Source: an uncultured Anaerolineae bacterium
GTDB lineage: Bacteria; Chloroflexota; Anaerolineae; Promineifilales; Promineifilaceae
DNA length: 32,823 nucleotides
Direction of reading: 5' to 3'
NCBI GenBank assembly: GCA_937949915.1
Contig: CALECP010000016.1
Coordinates: 1-32,823, forward strand
This document shows positions 12,614 through 32,823 of the stretch, piece after piece (within the stretch, counting starts at the first letter, position 1; each line of letters begins with the position of its first letter). Both the position numbers and the translations under genes were made by a program. The notes under the pieces were generated by a model, which saw only the letters and a program-made list of their open reading frames with translations, was not told where the DNA came from and did no database searches.

Positions 12614-15600
12614 CTAAGCGCGGCGACGCACGATCCATGTTGCCAGCAACATAGTCGCTGCAAAGAGCAACGTCATCATTTGCGCCGTAGCGGTGTTGAT
12701 ACCTGCATTTGCCAGACCAACGGCCGTTGGAGCGGCAAATGAGAAGTCTTGCGTGAGGTCGGATATGTTTCCGGCCGTCAAATCAACTGTCGCTGAGTTG
12801 TTGCCATCGTTATCCGGGTTCGCGTCAATTTCATAGCCACGCTTGTCATCTGGCAGCGTGCTGGTATCAATCGACACAATATACGTCTGTAACGGCAGCC
12901 CGGTAAAGCTGTAGCGGCCGTTCGCGTTTGTCGTCGTTGAGATCACATTGCCAGCCAAGTCAGACAAGTACACAACCACACCTGCGATAGGAACATCGAG
13001 TCCCGGTTCGTAGATGGCGTTGCCGTTCACTTCACTCCACAATTGGTTGCCAATCGTGCCAAGCGGGTTAACGTTGACATTCGCGGCCGCGGTGGCGGTG
13101 ATGCCATCGGCCGTCCAGATGGCGGTGTTCATCGTATCAGCCATCATGGTGCTACTGACCACAACGCCCAAACCGACAGTTGATGCGCTCTCACCTGGTA
13201 CAAGGTCATAAGCGACACCTGCGAATAGATCGCCAAGCACATCGTCGGTCAGCGCGTGCGTGCTGAGAGTGACATTGCCCGTGTTGGTAACGGTATAGCA
13301 GTAGTAGACGGTTGTGCCTTCATCCACTGTGATGTCAGTCGTTGTCGCACACGCATCCATGTCTGTACCGACTGTCTTGAGCAAGCTGATCGCTGGCTCG
13401 TTGCGATACACCATGACGTTTGCCATATCGCTAGCAGTGATGCCATCGGCCGTCCAGATGGCGGTGTTCATCGTGTCCACATCGATCATGCTGCTGACCA
13501 TAACGCCTGCATCAACTGTTGAAACAGATGCGCCCGGTGCAAGATCGTAAGCCAAGCCAGCAAACAGTTCGCCCAGCACATCGTCATCCAAATCGTGCGA
13601 CGACAAGGTGACGTTACCTGTGTTGGTGACGGTGTAGCAGTAGTAGACAGTTGTCCCCGCTTCGACGAGGATGTTATCGGTGCTGGCACATGTACCCGCT
13701 TCCGTACCTACTGTCTTGACGAGTGAAATACTCGGCATATTCGGGGTGACATTGACGTTCGCTGTGTCGGAAGCGGTGACACCATCGGCCGTCCAAATCG
13801 CCGTGTTCATCACGTCCATTGCGGCCGTCATTGTCACCATCACACCAGCGTCTACTGTCGAAACAGATGCACCCGGTGCAAGATCGTAAGCCAAGCCAGT
13901 GAACAGTTCGCCCAGTACATCGTCGTCCAAATCGTGCGACGACAAGATGACGTTACCTGTGTTGGTGACGGTGTAACAGTAGTAAACCATCGTGCCTTCA
14001 TCAACAGTAATGTCGTCGGTGCTGGCGCAAGCGTTCGCGTCTGTTCCCACCGTTTTAACAAGCGAGATACTTGGCATGTTCGGGGTAACATTGACGTTGG
14101 CGGTCGCCGTCGCGGTGACACCATCGGCCGTCCAGACGGCCGTATTCATCGTATCGGCCGTCATCGTGCTGCTGACCATGACACCTAAGCCAACAGTAGA
14201 AGCACTTTCACCAACTGCGAGGTCGTAAGCAACGCCATCGAACAGATCGCCGAGAATATCGTCGGTCAGTGCGTGGGTGCTGAGGGTGATGTCACCAATG
14301 TTGGTGACGGTGTAGCAATAGTAGACGGTTGTGCCTTCTTGCACGGTAATGTCGTCGGTACTGGCACACGCATCCATATCTGTTCCAACTGTTTTAACCA
14401 AGCTAATCGCTGGCTCGTTGCGGAAGACGGTCACGTTGGCGGTGTCGGTTGCCGTGATGCCATCGGCCGTCCAAATCGCGGTATTCATCACGTCCATTTC
14501 GGCCGTCATCGTAATCATTGCGCCTGCGTCTACTGTCGAAACAGATGCGCCCGGAGCGAGATCATACGAGAAGCCAGCCAATAAGCCGCCAAGCACATCA
14601 TCATCCAAGTCATGGACAGACAATGTGATGTCGCCCGTATTGGTGACGGTGTAGCAGTAGTAGACAGTTGTCCCCGCTTCGACGAGAATGTCATCGGTGC
14701 TGGCACAAACGCCTGCTTCTGTGCCAACCGTTTTGGTCAGCGCAATGCTTGGGTTCGGCTCAACCACTGTTTCAACTTCGATAGTCACAGTTGCCATGTC
14801 GGTGCGTGTAATGCCGTCTGCGATCCAGTCGGCCGTATTCACGGTGTCGGTCGTGATGCTGGTGGCGATCACATAGGTGAACACTGCGCCAGGAACGAGA
14901 TCGTAGCCCACATCGGTCAAGCCAGTGTCAGCGATTTGGTCGTCTACCAATGTATGGTTGGTTAGGGTGACGTTGCCTGTATTCGTAACGGTGTAGCAGT
15001 AGAACACGTTGGCGGCCGTCATCATGCCCGTTGTTGAGAATGAGCCAGTGCCGTAAGCAGAGTCGCCCACAACGGCCGTGCCATCGAGCGCGTCTGTGCC
15101 GCTAAACGTCCAGTCATTCAAGTTAAACGTCATTGATGGGCTTGCGCCGTTCATGCGGTATGCCCAGCCGTCGGTGTGTTCCCACGCCTCGCCTGTACCG
15201 TCTGTGCCAACTGCACCAAATGCGTCCACAATTACGCCATTGCTATAGAGAACAATTGCATCGTCGCCATTGATATTCGCTTCGCCCGTCACAAAGTCTG
15301 GCGCAAAGCCGAAGAAGTTCGCAAACTCAACTGCATCACTCGCTACATAAAGCGTTTGTCCTGCGCTGGCGGTGCCGGTCAAGACAAAGCCGTTCGCCAC
15401 GTCTGGTGTGCCGCCATTATTGGCGCTTTCAATCGCGTACATGCTCAGGTCAGCAATCGCATCAATCGCATACAGTTCGATCACCTTTGGCGTACCGCCG
15501 GATAACGGGCCATCGAGAACGCCGACGATCATCAGGCCGCTTCCGGCCGTGGTGATGGTCATCGGTTCACCTGCCATCGCTTGCGCTTCGGTCAGCATGA

Positions 15601-18600
15601 TGCTGTCTGTCGTGGCACAACTGTTATCCATACCCACTGTTTTGACGAGTGTGAAATCTGGCATGTCAACAGGGGTGGTAACTTCGACGGTAACTTCGGC
15701 CGAATCGGTGTCCGATACAGTCATCGTGAACGCAACAGTGTCTGTGACCATGCTGCCCGGTACACCGTCGATGCTGACGGTCACGGCGTTGCTGAATGCA
15801 ATATCGGCCGAGACAGTGATCACGTTTGTGAAGTCGGCCGCCACATCAGTCGCCGTACACGTGTACGAATCGCTGAAGCTTCCTAGACCGACATCGCCCG
15901 TAAAGTTGCCAGCCTCACAGCTTGGCGTTTGGGGATCGTTGATTGTCACGTTCTCAAACTGAATCGCACTTGTAAGGTAGTTGCTTGCTTCAATATCGAC
16001 TGTAAATGTCACATCGTCACCCGCCATCACATTTTGCGTATCGGGTGTTTTGCTTACGGTGATCTGTGGGTCAACCGTCATCGTACAGACAAATGTGATT
16101 GTCTCTCCGGCCGCGACATCCGCATACCATCCAAAGTTGGAAACGGTGATCAAAACATCGCCGGGGCCAATCGGTTCACCTGCGCCACCGTAACAGTAGG
16201 CGGCAATCCCAGCCATGCGATCATCGACACGCACCCGTGTATCAACACTGCTTACATTGGTGATGTAAACGGTGTAGGTCAACGTTGTGCCAACCATCTC
16301 TGATACTTTGTCGATCACAACGGTTGGTGTGACGGGGATGGTAACAGTGACAACATCTTGTGATGAGTTGGTGACGATGATCGTGTCGAATGTTGTATCA
16401 GAATCAGTATCGTCGTAGCCGACGATAGAACCCAGCACTTGATTGATCAGAACCGCGCTGGCTGTGATTTCGATGGTGTGTGTAACTGGTGCGCTGCCTG
16501 TTGGGATGCTTACGGGATTACTATTACATGGCAACGAGTCGCCCGGTTGTAAGTAGAGTCCGGCCGTCGTAAATCCACAAACACCTTCTGGATCGACTAT
16601 CTCCACAATCTCAATCACAACATCACCATCGTTGCCAATGTTGACATCGAACAAAGCGGGTGAGCCAGCGACAACAGAGGAGGTTTGCGCGGTTGTGGTG
16701 ATGATGACAGATGGGTCAACGGTTGCGCTCATCGTGTAGCTGACCACTTCCATTGGGGCGATGTCGGCCGTAATGGTGATCAAGTCCGTGTAAACCATGC
16801 CGTTGTACAGGAGCGGGGTGTTCGCCACATCGGTGATCAAGTAGGTTGCCGCAACGTCGCCGGTGTTGGTGACATAAACAGTGTACTCAATGCTGTTGCC
16901 GTTGAGCGTAGACACTTTTTCGATGTCGATGCCGGGAACAGGGGTAACATCGGTGGTGACAGTAGCCACATCGGTGCGCGTAATGCCGTCTGCTACCCAG
17001 TCGGCCGTATTGACCGTATCAGTTGTTACGCTGGCGGGGATGATGTAGGTAAACACAGCACCAGGCGCAAGGTCATAGGCGACATTGGTCAGACCAGTAT
17101 CGGCGATTTGGTCGTCGATCAGTGTGTGGTCGGTCAGCGTGATGTTGCCTGTGTTAGTAACTGTGTAGCAGTAGTAGACATTGGCGGCCGTGATCATGCC
17201 GGTTGTTGAGAATGAACCAGCCATGAAGCCTGCTTCAGCGGCCGTGGCTGTGCCATCGACTACATTGATGCCACTATAGGTGTAGTCAGCTAAGTTGAAC
17301 GTTGCGGAGGGGTTTGTCCCGCTCACACGATACGCCCAGCCGTCCAAGTACTCCCATGCTTCGCCGGTGCCATCAGTGTTGATGTCACCGAATGTGTCGA
17401 TCACAGTGCCGGACATGAACAGTTCGATGGCATCGTCGCCGTTAATCGCGGCCGCGCCTGTGGTGTAGACGTTGGCACTTGTGATGCCGTAGCTGCTCAA
17501 TGATGCTGCATCGGTCGCAACGTAGATGAAATCACCGGCCGCAACGGAAGCTGTGGGGAAAGTGAACTCTTCGCCGGTTGATCCGCCGCCATTATTGGCA
17601 GAACCGACACCGTACAGGCTGAGATCAGCAATCGCGTCAATCGCATACAGCTCGATCACTTTTGGCGTACCGCCCGATAATGGGCCATCGAGAACGGCCG
17701 TGATGAGCAAGCCAGACGCAGTTGTGTTGATCGTAGTCGGTTCGCCAGCCATCGCTTGTGCGGCCGTCAAGCCGAGAGTGTCGGCCGTCGCACAACTATT
17801 GTCAATACCCACTGTTTTGGTCAGCATGAAGTCTGGCATGTTAACAGTCGGTGGCGTGTATTCGTTCGTGATAGTACAGGTGGTGGTCATTCCGGCCGTC
17901 ACTTGTACGCCATTCCCATCACCCGCATCGCCACAAGAAGCACTCACTTGCTCCCAGTTCGTGGGCAAGTTTGTTTCGCTAAATGTGTATGTGCCAGAAA
18001 GCACGTCCGTCACCGTGACAGGCAGCGCACTGGTCAGATCAAATGTGCCGCCACCATTGACATCGTGTGTGATCTCGAATGCGGTGGTGTCGCTAACAGG
18101 ATCAGTTACTTTGACAAAGATAAGCGTTCCCGGCACAACAGGGGTGATGACAGTCACCATAGCCGAATCGCTATCGGTAATCGTCTCACTGAATGTCACC
18201 GTGTCAGAAACAACTGTTCCTGGAATGTCTGCCAAAGTCATCGGATCAATGATAGCTGCTTCGACAGTGTTGGTGAAGGCGATGTCGGCCGAAATCTCAA
18301 TCGTATTCGTAAAGCTGCTCGTTACATTGGTTGCCGAACAGGTATCTGGAATCGGGCCAAATGCACTAAAGCCTTGCGAACCAAGAATAAGTGGCACATT
18401 GCCGTTATCGCCCGTTTCGCATTGTGGGGTCGCGGGGTCAGATACGGTCACATTTTCAAATCGAACAGCGTTGAGGTCGTCGTTCGTGTTGTTGGTTGTC
18501 CCACTGATGTTGATCGTAAATGTGGCATCGTCACCGCTATTGATCATTTGGTCTGCATCTTTGCTAATGCCGATAAATGGATCGTAGGTGGCGACACAAA

Positions 18601-21600
18601 CGAACTGGATGCTATCACCGGCCGGAATCGTGTCGAAACCTGTGCGGCTAAAGCCCTGTACCTGATCTGCAGGCGCTGCATTGAGTGCGTCATCTCCTGC
18701 AATCACAGTATCATCTGGGCCGAGGCAGTAGTTGGCTTGGATACCGGTCATCTGGTCAGAAATACGAATAGTCGCATCGACAGTGCTGATATTTTCAACC
18801 GTGATCGTATAGGTCAATGTTGTGTCAATCAAAGTTGATTCTTTATCAATCGTGATCGTTGGGGTGACAACTTGGATGTTGGTTAGCGTACAGGTTGTGG
18901 TGATGCCGCCAGTAATCTGAACGCCAGTTTCGTCGCCACCTGTATTACAAACAACATTATCGAGATTGTAATCACCGTCATCTTCGCTAAATGTATATAA
19001 ACCGGCAACAACGTCAGTGACGGTGACGGGCATTCCACTGGTCAATGGGAATGAACCACCAACAGTGCCATCTGCCAATTCAACATCATGGGTGATGGTG
19101 AATACGGCCGAATCATCAACCGGATCGGTGATCTTCTCAAAAATAAGCGTACCGAATGAGCGTGTATTGGTGATGGTGACAACTGTTGTCATACCAGCCG
19201 TTACATCGATGTCGCCGACGACACCGTTGCTCAATGTGACTAGGTTATCTGCATCGAATGTGGCCGAGACCCCACTCAATAGCCAATCGGCCGATGGCAC
19301 TGTTTCTGTAAACGAATATGTACCGGATGGCACGTCTGTAATCGTGATGCTACCACCATCGGAAATCACCATTGGCATTGCGCCACTGATGTCTGTTGTG
19401 ATGGTGAATGCGTCTGTAGACCCGGCCGGAACAGTCACCTTATTAATCACAAGCGTTCCGCTCTCAACCGTTATAGGGACAGTCGCAGTATACGCATTGT
19501 TCGTATCGGTTATATCGTCCATCGTAGTGATAACAACCGTATTTGTAAGAATGTCACCTACTGTCGCCGTTGGATAGACTGTTGATGTGATTACAAATGA
19601 TGTAGCATCATTCGGGCCAAGATCGGGCAATACGAACTCGTATGTACCACCCATCGTTGTGAATGGCATAGATGCCCCTGTGATTTGGTAGAACGTGTCG
19701 ATAGGCGTATCTGTCACAGTGATGCCGTGCATGGTTGTGATAGCTGTCGTATTTGAGACTGTAACTGTCCAAATCACCTCATCCCCTGGCGAGGCAGGAT
19801 TTGGCGCGGCCGTCTTCTCGACCGTTACGTCAGGATGCTTTTCTTCGCAAACCGCCATCGTGAAAGCAGTCATACCACCCAGTGGCAATGAATTAGATTC
19901 TGAATTACCGGCTGCGTCAGTGTAAGCAATCGCCGAATATGCACTGTACCATGTGAACTGCGTCACATTGGAACCTGTTGGCACACCAAAATCATTGACA
20001 AATTCACCACTAGCTGATGATAATGCACCGCTTGCACTTTGTGGTTCAGGGGGATCCGATGGGTCAACTTGTGCATTTACAAAGTCTGCACCATACACAC
20101 CAGTTGCATAATTCCCACCATCAGCCGATGGTGACGTACCAAATACATTGCTACCAAACGTTGTTGGTGTGCCATTCCAGTCAATTGCTCCTGGTGTTAC
20201 GCCTGTTGCTGTACTCAAACCAGCCTCAATCGCACCATTACCAGCACCATTAACTGTTGCAAAACCGATTTCGTACCCTTCTGTCGAACCATTAACTGAA
20301 CTCCAATCAATTTCAAAACCATCTGCAACCATTTGCGCCTCAATGCCGTTGACAAATTGGAAGTCATACTTCGCATAAGACCAGTTTGCATTGTTCGGAT
20401 CGCCGTTAACATCTGTATCAACATTTTGGAAGAAACCGTAAGCATTACCAAAGTTTGGTGTACCGTTTTGGAACTGTGCGACTGTGTTACCTGTTCCATT
20501 TGAATTGGTCGCAAGGTGTTCTGCATCAACTACAGCCGTCACTGTTAAGATAATGTCAATGACACCGTCCTGCCCTTCAATATAAAGTCCTGTCACAGGA
20601 TCAAGCGTGAATACATCAAGCTGGTAGGGGCCGCCAAGACCCGCATCAACGGAGACACCTGTACCTGCACCTGCTGTTGCAGCGTCCCAACCCGCTTCAT
20701 TCATATCTACGTTGAATGTTTGGATGTCGTCAGTCAAACACCAAAGCATTTCGTATTCAACAGGAACATCAATCAAAACGGTCGCAGTAGACGTGTTGTC
20801 TGTTGTTGTGATGTCCCCTGTCGTGGTAATTTCTACTGTGTTCTGTGCAATTGTGCTTGCACTAATGCCTGCATCAATTGTTGAAACAATTACAATTGTT
20901 GCATCATCACCTGCATCGAATGGATTGATAACAATCGGGTTTGTTGTCGCGGCAATTGGTGCGCCATCAACTGTAATACTATCAACCGAGTACAGCGATA
21001 AATCAGGCGTTTCTGTAATCGTTACGCCATTTGTCGCTGTGATGTTATTTGTGTTCGAGATATAGATTGTCCACGTAACCACATCGCCTGGAGAGGCAGA
21101 GGTGGGTGTTACTGTTTTTGCAATACTCACATTTGGTTGTGGTGGTGGCGGTGGCTCAATTGTGTAGTCGGCTGTAGCACATGCTCCCGCCACTACGCCC
21201 ACATTGTCAAAACCTGCATAATCACTACCCCCATTTTGGTTAGCAACCAAATCAAAATCTACAGAGGTAATTCCGGGAAGTACTGTAATGTTGTACGTAA
21301 CCCAAGCACCCCCCGTCCCATTACCGCTACTTCCCGTGAATACAGGGACCTGATTGGTGCTTACTGTTCCCGTTGCGCCACCACTGTTATATGGAGCGGT
21401 TGCTTGGAAAAACAAATCATCGCCATTATCAAACGCTTCTACATAGTATGAAAAACTAATACATCCGCCACCAGCAGCAGGCATTGTTACACTGTTGAAA
21501 TCAAGAATATGATCTTGACTTGTTCCACCTGTTTGCCCAGCACTTTCGATGTCTCGGATGCCCCAGAAGCTACCGTCTCCGTCTGCATCGGCCGTCTGTG

Positions 21601-21808
21601 GTCCAATTGCGGTCACGATGTCAAATACATCGCTACCTGCTGTGTATTGAAAATTAGGTGTATAGCCCCATGTAGATGTGCCACCACCGAAGGTCTCTCC
21701 TTGTGGCACTTGGGCAAAAGCTGATGTCGGCATGAAAAGCCATGCAAACAGCAGCGCGAACAAGATCGGCACAACGGCCGAACATTTATCAATTCTTTGT
21801 TTAATCAT
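12614..21808 (-). CDS. Giant secreted DUF11-repeat surface protein, 3064 aa
   Basis: GGAG precedes the ATG at 21808. A signal peptide (to about residue 33, '...LFMPTSAFAQ') starts the protein. A beta-rich N-terminal domain follows, then a DUF11 domain (about 220-350, 'SIAKTVTPTSASPGDVVTWTIYISNT'). After it come an unassigned domain (about 355-650) with an 'NNANWSYAKYDFQFVNG' core, further DUF11 domains and prealbumin-like 'GTLVINKVTVP' domains. Two ExeM/NucH-type lamin-tail domains lie at about 1363-1530 and 2093-2257. Five tandem ~112-aa units (about 2352-2915) each have 'KTVGT...C...VYYCYTVTNTG'. An SdrD-B-like domain ('NQLWSEVNGNAIYEPGLDVPIAGVVVYLSD') precedes a C-terminal hydrophobic helix and RRRA. 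No LPXTG is seen. It is probably an adhesin or cell-surface fibre; that role is inferred. Confidence 0.88.
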   Translation of the reverse strand: MIKQRIDKCSAVVPILFALLFAWLFMPTSAFAQVPQGETFGGGTSTWGYTPNFQYTAGSDVFDIVTAIGPQTADADGDGSFWGIRDIESAGQTGGTSQDHILDFNSVTMPAAGGGCISFSYYVEAFDNGDDLFFQATAPYNSGGATGTVSTNQVPVFTGSSGNGTGGAWVTYNITVLPGITSVDFDLVANQNGGSDYAGFDNVGVVAGACATADYTIEPPPPPQPNVSIAKTVTPTSASPGDVVTWTIYISNTNNITATNGVTITETPDLSLYSVDSITVDGAPIAATTNPIVINPFDAGDDATIVIVSTIDAGISASTIAQNTVEITTTGDITTTDNTSTATVLIDVPVEYEMLWCLTDDIQTFNVDMNEAGWDAATAGAGTGVSVDAGLGGPYQLDVFTLDPVTGLYIEGQDGVIDIILTVTAVVDAEHLATNSNGTGNTVAQFQNGTPNFGNAYGFFQNVDTDVNGDPNNANWSYAKYDFQFVNGIEAQMVADGFEIDWSSVNGSTEGYEIGFATVNGAGNGAIEAGLSTATGVTPGAIDWNGTPTTFGSNVFGTSPSADGGNYATGVYGADFVNAQVDPSDPPEPQSASGALSSASGEFVNDFGVPTGSNVTQFTWYSAYSAIAYTDAAGNSESNSLPLGGMTAFTMAVCEEKHPDVTVEKTAAPNPASPGDEVIWTVTVSNTTAITTMHGITVTDTPIDTFYQITGASMPFTTMGGTYEFVLPDLGPNDATSFVITSTVYPTATVGDILTNTVVITTMDDITDTNNAYTATVPITVESGTLVINKVTVPAGSTDAFTITTDISGAMPMVISDGGSITITDVPSGTYSFTETVPSADWLLSGVSATFDADNLVTLSNGVVGDIDVTAGMTTVVTITNTRSFGTLIFEKITDPVDDSAVFTITHDVELADGTVGGSFPLTSGMPVTVTDVVAGLYTFSEDDGDYNLDNVVCNTGGDETGVQITGGITTTCTLTNIQVVTPTITIDKESTLIDTTLTYTITVENISTVDATIRISDQMTGIQANYCLGPDDTVIAGDDALNAAPADQVQGFSRTGFDTIPAGDSIQFVCVATYDPFIGISKDADQMINSGDDATFTINISGTTNNTNDDLNAVRFENVTVSDPATPQCETGDNGNVPLILGSQGFSAFGPIPDTCSATNVTSSFTNTIEISADIAFTNTVEAAIIDPMTLADIPGTVVSDTVTFSETITDSDSAMVTVITPVVPGTLIFVKVTDPVSDTTAFEITHDVNGGGTFDLTSALPVTVTDVLSGTYTFSETNLPTNWEQVSASCGDAGDGNGVQVTAGMTTTCTITNEYTPPTVNMPDFMLTKTVGIDNSCATADTLGLTAAQAMAGEPTTINTTASGLLITAVLDGPLSGGTPKVIELYAIDAIADLSLYGVGSANNGGGSTGEEFTFPTASVAAGDFIYVATDAASLSSYGITSANVYTTGAAAINGDDAIELFMSGTVIDTFGDINTDGTGEAWEYLDGWAYRVSGTNPSATFNLADYTYSGINVVDGTATAAEAGFMAGSFSTTGMITAANVYYCYTVTNTGNITLTDHTLIDDQIADTGLTNVAYDLAPGAVFTYIIPASVTTDTVNTADWVADGITRTDVATVTTDVTPVPGIDIEKVSTLNGNSIEYTVYVTNTGDVAATYLITDVANTPLLYNGMVYTDLITITADIAPMEVVSYTMSATVDPSVIITTTAQTSSVVAGSPALFDVNIGNDGDVVIEIVEIVDPEGVCGFTTAGLYLQPGDSLPCNSNPVSIPTGSAPVTHTIEITASAVLINQVLGSIVGYDDTDSDTTFDTIIVTNSSQDVVTVTIPVTPTVVIDKVSEMVGTTLTYTVYITNVSSVDTRVRVDDRMAGIAAYCYGGAGEPIGPGDVLITVSNFGWYADVAAGETITFVCTMTVDPQITVSKTPDTQNVMAGDDVTFTVDIEASNYLTSAIQFENVTINDPQTPSCEAGNFTGDVGLGSFSDSYTCTATDVAADFTNVITVSADIAFSNAVTVSIDGVPGSMVTDTVAFTMTVSDTDSAEVTVEVTTPVDMPDFTLVKTVGMDNSCATTDSIMLTEAQAMAGEPMTITTAGSGLMIVGVLDGPLSGGTPKVIELYAIDAIADLSMYAIESANNGGTPDVANGFVLTGTASAGQTLYVASDAVEFANFFGFAPDFVTGEANINGDDAIVLYSNGVIVDAFGAVGTDGTGEAWEHTDGWAYRMNGASPSMTFNLNDWTFSGTDALDGTAVVGDSAYGTGSFSTTGMMTAANVFYCYTVTNTGNVTLTNHTLVDDQIADTGLTDVGYDLVPGAVFTYVIATSITTDTVNTADWIADGITRTDMATVTIEVETVVEPNPSIALTKTVGTEAGVCASTDDILVEAGTTVYYCYTVTNTGDITLSVHDLDDDVLGGLLAGFSYDLAPGASVSTVDAGAMITMTAEMDVMNTAIWTADGITATDTANVTVFRNEPAISLVKTVGTDMDACASTDDITVQEGTTVYYCYTVTNIGDITLSTHALTDDILGDLFDGVAYDLAVGESASTVGLGVMVSSTMTADTMNTAVWTADGVTATATANVNVTPNMPSISLVKTVGTDANACASTDDITVDEGTMVYYCYTVTNTGNVILSSHDLDDDVLGELFTGLAYDLAPGASVSTVDAGVMVTMTAAMDVMNTAIWTADGVTASDTANVNVTPNMPSISLVKTVGTEAGTCASTDNILVEAGTTVYYCYTVTNTGNVTLSSHDLDDDVLGELFAGLAYDLAPGASVSTVDAGVMVSSMIDVDTMNTAIWTADGITASDMANVMVYRNEPAISLLKTVGTDMDACATTTDITVDEGTTVYYCYTVTNTGNVTLSTHALTDDVLGDLFAGVAYDLVPGESASTVGLGVVVSSTMMADTMNTAIWTADGITATAAANVNVNPLGTIGNQLWSEVNGNAIYEPGLDVPIAGVVVYLSDLAGNVISTTTNANGRYSFTGLPLQTYIVSIDTSTLPDDKRGYEIDANPDNDGNNSATVDLTAGNISDLTQDFSFAAPTAVGLANAGINTATAQMMTLLFAATMLLATWIVRRRA
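13065..14755 (-). repeat. Five tandem ~336-bp coding repeats
   Basis: Near-identical units begin at about 14755, 14417, 14082, 13737 and 13402. Each encodes ~112 residues: 'SISLVKTVGT', a Cys in 'ACASTDDI', 'VYYCYTVTNTG', 'DDDVLGELF', 'AYDLAPGASVSTV' and 'MNTAIWTADGIT'. Units starting NEPAISL and NMPSISL differ in blocks, which suggests unequal crossing-over or gene conversion. Confidence 0.85.
15040..15530 (-). repeat. Second copy of lamin-tail (ExeM/NucH-type) domain
   Basis: Codes for 'VLDGPLSGGTPKVIELYAID', 'FFGFAPDFVTGEANINGDDAIVLYSNG' and 'GTDGTGEAWEHTDGWAYRMNG', the pattern of the lamin-tail domain found in ExeM/NucH extracellular nucleases. No nuclease domain is attached. It is a paralogue of 17220-17720; the flanking 'PDFxLxKTVG...AQAMAGEP' and 'AANVxYCYTVTNTG' segments are duplicated too. 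Confidence 0.7.
17220..17720 (-). repeat. First copy of lamin-tail (ExeM/NucH-type) domain
   Basis: Codes for 'VLDGPLSGGTPKVIELYAID', 'SANNGGGSTGEEFTFP', 'INGDDAIELFMSG' and 'GDINTDGTGEAWEYLDGWAYRVSG'. These blocks match the N-terminal lamin-tail domain of ExeM/NucH-like proteins. The DNA around 17640-17700 is nearly identical to that around 15445-15525 in the second copy. Confidence 0.7.
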
Positions 21809-30456: not shown

Positions 30457-32823
30457 CTATGGTGTGACTCGAATTTTTGTCAGTGTCAAATCAGTATCAT
30501 TTGTCAGACGACCGTCTTGCGCCAACTGGAGATTGGTAAACGCGCCATCTTGCTGCGTGTACGCCTTCAGCACCAGCCGATAAATATCGGCCGGGGTATC
30601 GATAGACGGCGTGATCGTCAGGTCGATTTGCTGTACCGCACCGGGCTGCCATGTTGTCGTGTACAGAGGTTGATCATGGTTGCCGTAGCGCGTCGTATCG
30701 ATAATGTCTTGCGGCAAAATTTGGGCTGAAATACTGTAGTCGGCCGCAATTGCCCCCTCTGCCCGAAAATAAAGCGTCAGATCAAATGGTTCGCCCCGCG
30801 ACGGAGTACGGTCAGACAATTGATAGCCGATCAGGTCAAACTGATTGCCGAAGTTGGTTTGCGTCGGGTTGGGCAAATCACCGGGCGGCGCGGTGACAGT
30901 AATCGTTGTCAACTGTGTTGCATCGCCCAAGCGCAATCCTGTGTCTACGTCGTAGAGACCAACCAAGAGTTGTAGTGCGGCCGGAGTGACGGCCGTCGGT
31001 GGAATAGGCAGCCGATAATGATTACGTGTGCTGTCACCCACCTGCATAAAACTGGTCGCCAGCAGACCGCCACCGGGGTACATGTCGCGCTGGGCAATCG
31101 GGTTGTCGATCACCGGATCATTGAGATGCACAAACACGCTCCAGTTTTTGTCAGTTTGCGCCAGCAATTCCCAGTCGAGATAGAGATCGAGCGGGGTGTC
31201 GGGCTGGTAGGGGCGTTGTTCGATGGCGGCCGTATTGAGGCGAACCGTGTTGTCAAACGTGACAGGTTGAAAGTCGGAAAGTTGAAAGTTAGAAAGTGAA
31301 ACGTCAGTCGGCCGGTAGCTGGGGCGAATGATGCCCCAGGGCGCGTAGGCGGCGACCATGAACATGAAAATAGCCAACAACGTAATCGGAATGCGCGACA
31401 CTTTTTTCGGCAGCAGGGCAAACAAGCCAGTGGTGAGCAGCACCATTTCGGCCGGGAGTGCAGCAAATACGAGCCGTCCCTGACTTGACCATGTGGTGGT
31501 CGCCCATTGCACCAGCCCCACCACGACCGCGGCCGTCCACAAAAGGCAAACGACAAGCGCAAAATGTTGCTCTACAAAATTAAACAACGTGACAAGCGGA
31601 GCGCGGCGTGTGCGTGTGAACGTCAATAAAATGCGTACTGCATAAAGCATGAAGCCGACGACACCGATCACCAGCAGCCAATTGAGAACGGTGTAAATGA
31701 GCGATGGCAACGGCACATTGACCCCGCCAAACAGCCCCCAGAACGCTTGCATAAACCCAAAGCGCTCGTCCCACAATTGCGCGAGCGTGGCTGGCTGCGG
31801 CCGTTGTCCCAGCACCGCGATGAACGCATTCCACCCTTTCCAGTCGCCATACAGCCGCACATTGCGAACATACCACCAGCCCCCGACAACAAATGCCGTC
31901 ACAAAAAGCACCACAAACTGCCCGACCGTCCGCACCAGTAGAGACGCAAGATTTTGCGTCTCTGTCTTATTTTCATCCCCCGTCCGCACCAGTAGAGACA
32001 CAAGATTTTGTGTCTCTCTCTTTTCTTGTTTCTTTCTTCCCTCCCCTGTTTGTAAAGAAGAAAAAGAAGAAGACGCAAGATGTTGCGTCTCTACTTTTGA
32101 ATCACGCCAATTGGCGATAAACAACGTACCGAGCGCAAGCGGCAGCAACCCAACCCCGATGATTTTGGCAATGGTAGCGAGACCGATCAGCACACCGAGC
32201 AAGAGGATGTCGCGCCAATGCACGGCCGGAACACCAACCACATGGCGGATCAGACGATAGAGCGTGACGGCCGACAGTGCCATGATCAAATTGTCATTAT
32301 TGACCGCGCCACTGATGAACAAAAACATCGGCAAGAACGCCACCATCGACGCGGCCGCGAGTGCCAGCGCGGGACGCTGTGGATGGGTGAGACGGCCGAT
32401 TCGCCATGTGTAAAACACGGTGATCGCCCCTAGCGCGACTGACAAAAAGCGCACGATACGCACCGCCAGCAACGTGCCTGACCAGGGCGACCAATCAGGG
32501 TTGTGGATGGCGAGATTATTGTTGCCGTCGGCCGTGATGATACCGTTGCTAACGTGGGGATTGAGCCAGCGCTTTTCGAGTAGATCGCTGGTGTCAATAG
32601 GCGCAGTCAAAGCTGCACCGAGATAGTAATAAAGCGGTGGCTGGCTGGCTTGCTGCTTCCACAGGCCGACGGCGTTGGGATCGAATACTTGCACCGGCAA
32701 CGGGTTGCCATCGGCAAGATGCGCGACCATCGGATAGTGCCACAATTCGTCCCCCGCCTCAAAGACGGGGGTGAGCAGGGCGTAGCTGCTGGCAAGAAAA
32801 AGATACGCGAGCAAGATGAGGGT
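30457..32823 (-). CDS. Multi-pass GT-C/DUF2142-like membrane protein, 5' end outside window
   Basis: The frame has 788 codons and continues past the right edge. The first loop, 'PVFEAGDELWHYPMVAHLADGNPLPVQ', and 'QPPLYYYLGAAL' are the acidic luminal-loop patterns of DUF2142/GT-C glycosyltransferases that use polyprenyl-phosphate sugars. At least nine membrane helices follow. The C-terminal ~270 residues are outside the membrane and beta-rich ('LDLYLDWELLAQTDKNWSVFVHLND', 'LIGYQLSDRTPSRGEPFDLTLYFRAEG'), a domain often found on such proteins in Chloroflexota. The sugar and acceptor are unknown. Between two helices, a hydrophilic loop is built from three in-frame palindromic repeats (see 31940-32090), and a short minisatellite lies at 31269-31297. 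Confidence 0.75.
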   Translation of the reverse strand, partial: TLILLAYLFLASSYALLTPVFEAGDELWHYPMVAHLADGNPLPVQVFDPNAVGLWKQQASQPPLYYYLGAALTAPIDTSDLLEKRWLNPHVSNGIITADGNNNLAIHNPDWSPWSGTLLAVRIVRFLSVALGAITVFYTWRIGRLTHPQRPALALAAASMVAFLPMFLFISGAVNNDNLIMALSAVTLYRLIRHVVGVPAVHWRDILLLGVLIGLATIAKIIGVGLLPLALGTLFIANWRDSKVETQHLASSSFSSLQTGEGRKKQEKRETQNLVSLLVRTGDENKTETQNLASLLVRTVGQFVVLFVTAFVVGGWWYVRNVRLYGDWKGWNAFIAVLGQRPQPATLAQLWDERFGFMQAFWGLFGGVNVPLPSLIYTVLNWLLVIGVVGFMLYAVRILLTFTRTRRAPLVTLFNFVEQHFALVVCLLWTAAVVVGLVQWATTTWSSQGRLVFAALPAEMVLLTTGLFALLPKKVSRIPITLLAIFMFMVAAYAPWGIIRPSYRPTDVSLSNFQLSDFQPVTFDNTVRLNTAAIEQRPYQPDTPLDLYLDWELLAQTDKNWSVFVHLNDPVIDNPIAQRDMYPGGGLLATSFMQVGDSTRNHYRLPIPPTAVTPAALQLLVGLYDVDTGLRLGDATQLTTITVTAPPGDLPNPTQTNFGNQFDLIGYQLSDRTPSRGEPFDLTLYFRAEGAIAADYSISAQILPQDIIDTTRYGNHDQPLYTTTWQPGAVQQIDLTITPSIDTPADIYRLVLKAYTQQDGAFTNLQLAQDGRLTNDTDLTLTKIRVTP
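31269..31297 (-). repeat. ACTTTC minisatellite inside the membrane-protein gene
   Basis: GAAAGT (ACTTTC on the coding strand) occurs four times, at 31269, 31277, 31284 and 31292, with 8-, 7- and 8-bp steps. It encodes 'SLSNFQLSDFQPV', a 15-bp (5-residue) repeat at the membrane/exterior junction. Confidence 0.7.
31940..32090 (-). repeat. Three in-frame hairpin palindromes (RPE-like)
   Basis: Copy 1 is 31940-31963 (AGAGACGCAA-GATT-TTGCGTCTCT). Copy 2 is 31994-32017 (AGAGACACAA-GATT-TTGTGTCTCT). Copy 3 is 32071-32090 (AGACGCAA-GATG-TTGCGTCT). Copies 1 and 2 lie in a 54-bp tandem duplication that includes 14 identical upstream bases. On the coding strand they encode ETQNLASLLVRT, ETQNLVSLLVRT and ETQHLASSS. 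Confidence 0.88.

Follow-up and report, generated by a model that had tools for sequence, protein, structure and literature searches.

The window, that is, the whole 32,823-nt stretch of DNA that was analyzed, carries at positions 30457 to 32823 on the minus strand a 788-aa ORF that is open at the contig edge, with its 5' end lying beyond that edge. The product is membrane glycosyltransferase-like and resembles the dolichyl-phosphate-mannose-type glycosyltransferases (PMT_2, with DUF2142 below the cut-off). Within this gene, at positions 31938 to 32094, lies a REP-derived insert that is read in frame on the minus strand as codons ~244 to 296 and that is located between two hydrophobic helices, whose placement was deduced from Kyte-Doolittle hydropathy alone. 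The loop residues (~244 to 299) are hydrophilic, and hydrophobic segments lie on either side at residues 203 to 239 and 291 to 315. In the minus-strand frame, the three hairpins of the insert encode the peptides ETQNLASLLVRT, ETQNLVSLLVRT, and VETQHLASSS. The original prediction of three in-frame hairpins that encode similar peptides and form a loop between hydrophobic segments was borne out by the coordinates, the translation, and the hydropathy. RNA folding of the insert gave z = −5.9, a score that merely restates the palindromes. Elsewhere in the window, an ORF of 3064 aa was observed on the minus strand at 12614 to 21808.

The loop is absent from orthologues of the host gene. A comparison with orthologues lacking it had been proposed with the original prediction, and all 19 found in relatives (identity, 42 to 50%), one from the same genus included, were without the ~41- to 44-residue loop. 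As the genome is in 425 contigs and assemblies fail at repeats, an artifact in which repeated palindromes were wrongly joined during metagenome assembly was considered. This is barely credible, because the insert lies in a single unbroken frame of 788 aa with orthology on both of its sides, its entire length (~160 bp) is near the read length, and independent genomes offer further in-frame cases. One orthologue (L039) was observed to hold a different repeat-like stretch, SPITDYRLPITDYGR, at the same loop position, and the host-gene loop may therefore take up various short repeats.

Copy 1 of the REP (31938 to 31963, plus strand) consists of GTAG, the hairpin AGACGCAA-GATT-TTGCGTCT, and CT, and its stem is of subtype GC. 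Copy 2 (31992 to 32017, plus strand) consists of GTAG, AGACACAA-GATT-TTGTGTCT, and CT and is of subtype AC, while copy 3 (32071 to 32094, minus strand, with the hairpin itself at 32071 to 32090) consists of AGACGCAA-GATG-TTGCGTCT followed by CTAC and is of subtype GC; GTAG marks one foot of each of the three. Copies 2 and 3 are the left and right arms of a head-to-head dimer (31992 to 32094) with GTAG and CTAC on the outside, a 55-bp spacer, and arms of unlike subtype, and this inverted arrangement with the GTAG feet outside is that of a REPIN or BIME. Copy 1 forms an additional left arm, and 12 bp of host flank, CCGTCCGCACCA, is repeated before copies 1 and 2. Two 54-bp units can accordingly be delineated on the plus strand, the first (31926 to 31979; 18 codons) comprising CCGTCCGCACCA, copy 1, and a T-rich tail and repeating the start of the next, and the second (31980 to 32033) comprising CCGTCCGCACCA, copy 2, and a diverged tail. 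The 38-bp stretches at 31926 to 31963 and 31980 to 32017, which lie 54 bp apart, differ at two bases only (G at 31946 versus A at 32000 and C at 31957 versus T at 32011), and these bases pair in the stem; this part of the original description was confirmed base by base. Similarity between the units soon falls off downstream of these stretches (48 bp at 90%). A search of the genome with the whole insert matched many REPs but no donor sharing the tail of copy 1; the best match (74%) was to a trimer on contig 30.

The copies expected elsewhere in the genome by the original prediction were found in abundance. The core AGACRCAA-N4-TTGYGTCT is present in 125 copies in the 4.1-Mb genome, and AGACRYAA-N4-TTRYGTCT, with R/Y at both variable positions, produced 154 matches, while the reversed-pattern control produced 0; the hairpin family is therefore not due to chance. 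The copies examined closely were the 76 with at most one mismatch in 1.06 Mb of sampled contigs. Nearly all of these have GTAG at one foot, and the other foot continues into a T-rich, CTTTCTT-like tail. The GTAG was exact or near exact in the oriented copies, the orientation itself being set by this tag, and five more copies had CTAC at both feet. The core stem is 8 bp and the loop is 4 bases, with stems of up to 12 bp in double-foot copies. Among neighboring pairs in the sample, 21 of 26 were inverted with the GTAG/CTAC feet outside. Only 11 of the 76 copies lay inside an ORF of ≥200 aa, compared with 74% of random positions. In-frame copies are also present in two genes other than the host gene, one glycerate-2-kinase-like and one of the AllH family, both in the same frame as in the host gene; ORFs spanning copies in L069, L091, and L108 had no Pfam match, look spurious, and were rejected as real hosts. 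Among 40 relatives searched, copies were found only in this genome and in G015, where they were single and mostly had both feet; the genome of the same genus had none. Other hairpin families with related stems, GGACATGGC, GGACACGG, GACACGAT, and GACGCACC, are also dispersed in the genome (sampled contigs L017 to L036 and L062 to L141).

The same palindrome extends well beyond these relatives. The exact 26-mer GTAGAGACGCAANATNTTGCGTCTCT was present in records labeled Bacteroidota, Cyanobacteria, Chloroflexota, Deltaproteobacteria, Methylomonas, Methylobacter, Planctomycetota, Calditrichaeota, several Patescibacteria, and others, although some of these labels may be wrong, since many of the records are metagenome bins. 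Such breadth is unusual. For 118 such palindromes in other records, both feet were present in 93, and 18 were spanned by an ORF of ≥200 aa. The hosts identified for in-frame copies included isoleucyl-tRNA synthetase (IleRS), ComF, O-antigen ligase, a GT4 glycosyltransferase, an ABC permease, and HlyD, and the peptide was mostly VETQN(F/L)ASL, that is, nearly the same nine amino acids. The IleRS copy (L218:3853-6960) is one of a series of examples (L152 to L263) that mostly read VETQNFASL. In a further record (L297; G193:C2:13891-14050), at least five of the same palindromes were observed head to tail with a 35-bp period.

The GTAG foot, the head-to-head pairing, and the avoidance of genes assign the palindromes to the GTAG-type REPs and REPINs, and the palindrome and stem size, the high dispersed copy number, and the mainly extragenic location are likewise those of the REP superfamily. 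The likeness to REP/BIME units suggested originally was therefore right. Members of the GTAG superfamily, as described by Di Nocera in 2013 (PMC3733652), are 20- to 40-bp palindromes with a stem of about 6 to 13 bp, a short loop, and GTAG at one foot, and they form head-to-head dimers and clusters that reiterate flanking DNA, include subfamilies with alternative complementary stem bases, and occasionally occur in frame, all as found here. The palindrome sequence was not found quoted in the text of the REP papers searched; it may be one of the 24 families of PMC3733652. The BIMEs of Escherichia coli differ in having unrelated sequence and bulged stems, where those here are perfect (PMC8266576).

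The original prediction had also likened the palindromes to the Rickettsia palindromic elements (RPE) and had proposed an undescribed coding palindromic element. Such a dedicated element, like RPE or PARCEL, would spread in genes and add a functional peptide. In its favor are the three genes of this genome that carry the palindrome in frame, the IleRS, ComF, O-antigen ligase, and GT4 glycosyltransferase genes of other phyla that do likewise, and the predominance of one frame (VETQ in 13 of the 18 spanned palindromes). The palindromes of RPE also lie in frame in genes, but they carry a CGTC tag and other sequence, whereas the family here is GTAG tagged and mainly extragenic, and the likeness thus fails at the end tag. 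The peptide, moreover, varies with REP subtype and family. Since the copies avoid ORFs and in-frame REPs have already been described (PMC3733652 and PMC6006769), a dedicated coding element was rejected as very improbable.

The compensatory nature of the difference between copies 1 and 2 was real in that both stems stay perfect, but it is not peculiar to the host gene, paired variants being found genome-wide. The variable stem positions were paired in 74 and 72 of the 76 copies, while the largest paired counts in 10,000 shuffles at each position were 64 and 64; the observed counts are inflated by the kinship of the copies, which are not independent events. Stem subtypes GC, AC, and GT (positions 5 and 6) cover most copies. 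What distinguishes copy 1 from copy 2 is thus a single instance of a pattern that runs through the family, in agreement with the REP subfamilies that have alternative complementary bases (PMC3733652). Selection on the protein fails to account for the pairing, since one of the two changes is silent (ACG/ACA, Thr) and the other is Ala/Val.

The paired change could instead have arisen in place after the duplication, by template switching within the hairpin (quasipalindrome correction) and not by inheritance of two subtypes, and to this we give somewhat less than an even chance. It is plausible because copies 1 and 2 share the host flank and the loop, as a local duplicate would, and their 38-bp parts differ at the paired sites only. 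One-sided intermediates were present in 6 of the 76 genome copies, and template switching is a known route to compensatory changes (PMC8794818). Against this, the tails of the 54-bp units differ strongly, and subtypes AC and GT occur widely, alternating with GC between the arms of REPINs, so that exchange with another copy is possible.

In the whole genome, the arms were of unlike subtype in 27 of 31 inverted pairs, while random pairing of the same arms gave 11.6 like pairs on average (P = 0.0006 for ≤4 like pairs, permutation), the orientation of some of the newly added pairs having been read by eye from the inner sequence. The pattern was first noticed in 21 sampled pairs (2 like and 19 unlike), and as these lie within the 31, the larger test does not replicate it independently. 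The same excess could result if the pairs descend from a small number of unlike founders. Unlike REP variants in inverted pairs, y-z1 or y-z2, are likewise the usual arrangement in the BIMEs of E. coli (PMC8266576).

With regard to mobilization, the RAYT gene sought on the basis of the original prediction was found only in part: one RAYT clade is flanked by the palindrome in other genomes, but none of that clade was found in this one. Genome G097 has only three palindromes, one within a RAYT gene and the other two immediately upstream and downstream of it; the internal copy is in frame and encodes VETQDFASL. The RAYT has NHVH, WQ, and YIQQNP motifs, the last being of the form YI..NP and not exactly YIxNNP. 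Identity to the G097 RAYT is 72% for that of G049 and 69% for that of G257, both of which adjoin the palindrome and have no internal copy. Further RAYTs adjoining the palindrome were found in L186 and L169, with a Tenebribacter contig and a Syntrophus contig being named. Perfect internal palindromes are frequent in a broader collection of RAYT genes of the class, in which 18.6 kb of RAYT sequence contained 23 hairpins, compared with 12 in 74.8 kb elsewhere. One RAYT gene (L292, 1501 to 2211) has a loop with several tandem SVETPQRDLV copies, which look like repeated REP-derived peptides.

On shared features, the clade appears to fit TnpAREP subclass 2.4 (RAYT group 4). The marks of this subclass are an in-frame REP between the HuH and Y motifs and NH-x-H, WQ, and YIxNNP-type motifs, and in-frame REPs inside RAYT genes were thus not a new feature, having been published by Quentin in 2018 (PMC6006769). 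The case here differs from that subclass in that the inverted-pair arms are mostly single-foot and of unlike subtype and in that the cognate gene was not found in the genome of the window: no RAYT of the matching clade was detected in this 90%-complete genome with Y1_Tnp, the NCBIfam RAYT model, and two RAYT proteins as queries. The best match to the clade, at 34% identity, was a RAYT flanked by a different REP. Two RAYT sequences of the genome itself were rejected as cognates because each lies by a different REP family, the one on contig 21 being flanked by GACGCACC-type hairpins and a fragment on contig 320 being followed by a GGACATGGC-type hairpin. Since many group 4 transposase genes carry a REP in frame, the REPs of this group may be selected to be translatable and so be preadapted to enter genes, one of them having spread over at least a dozen phyla and left the near-identical VETQNFASL; we regard this as speculative and rather unlikely.

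Taken together, the insert is very probably a GTAG-superfamily REPIN that lies in frame, with a locally duplicated arm, that was putatively spread by a RAYT, and that encodes a probably neutral peptide loop. In-frame insertion of a REP into a gene is a known kind of event. The head-to-head pair, copies 2 and 3, would have entered as one REPIN with an open frame into a variable, tolerant loop of the membrane glycosyltransferase gene. Local duplication of the left arm together with 12 bp of host sequence would have followed, the frame being kept since 54 bp corresponds to 18 codons. A simple single duplication fails to account for every base, as divergence between the 54-bp units is much greater in their tails than in the 38-bp parts. 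The paired G-C/A-T difference separates two stem subtypes present across the genome. The most likely agent of the spread of the REPs is a RAYT of TnpAREP subclass 2.4 (RAYT group 4), which would nick single-stranded DNA at the hairpin foot that carries GTAG. We only infer mobilization in this genome, since its assembly yielded no RAYT of the matching clade, and this result counts against the explanation; the gene may have been lost or may be unassembled. Stem symmetry may be kept by recognition or copying of perfect hairpins only or by hairpin-templated correction during replication. As the REP is common to distant phyla, its host range or transfer route is left unaccounted for by this explanation.

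The odd loop of the host gene is thereby explained as the footprint of a REP insertion. This also cautions against taking VETQN(F/L)ASL-like stretches in predicted proteins for motifs, since they are REP footprints. The set of REPs and RAYTs described here, with one 26-bp palindrome shared by many phyla, is suited to asking how stem symmetry persists and why inverted pairs favor unlike arms.
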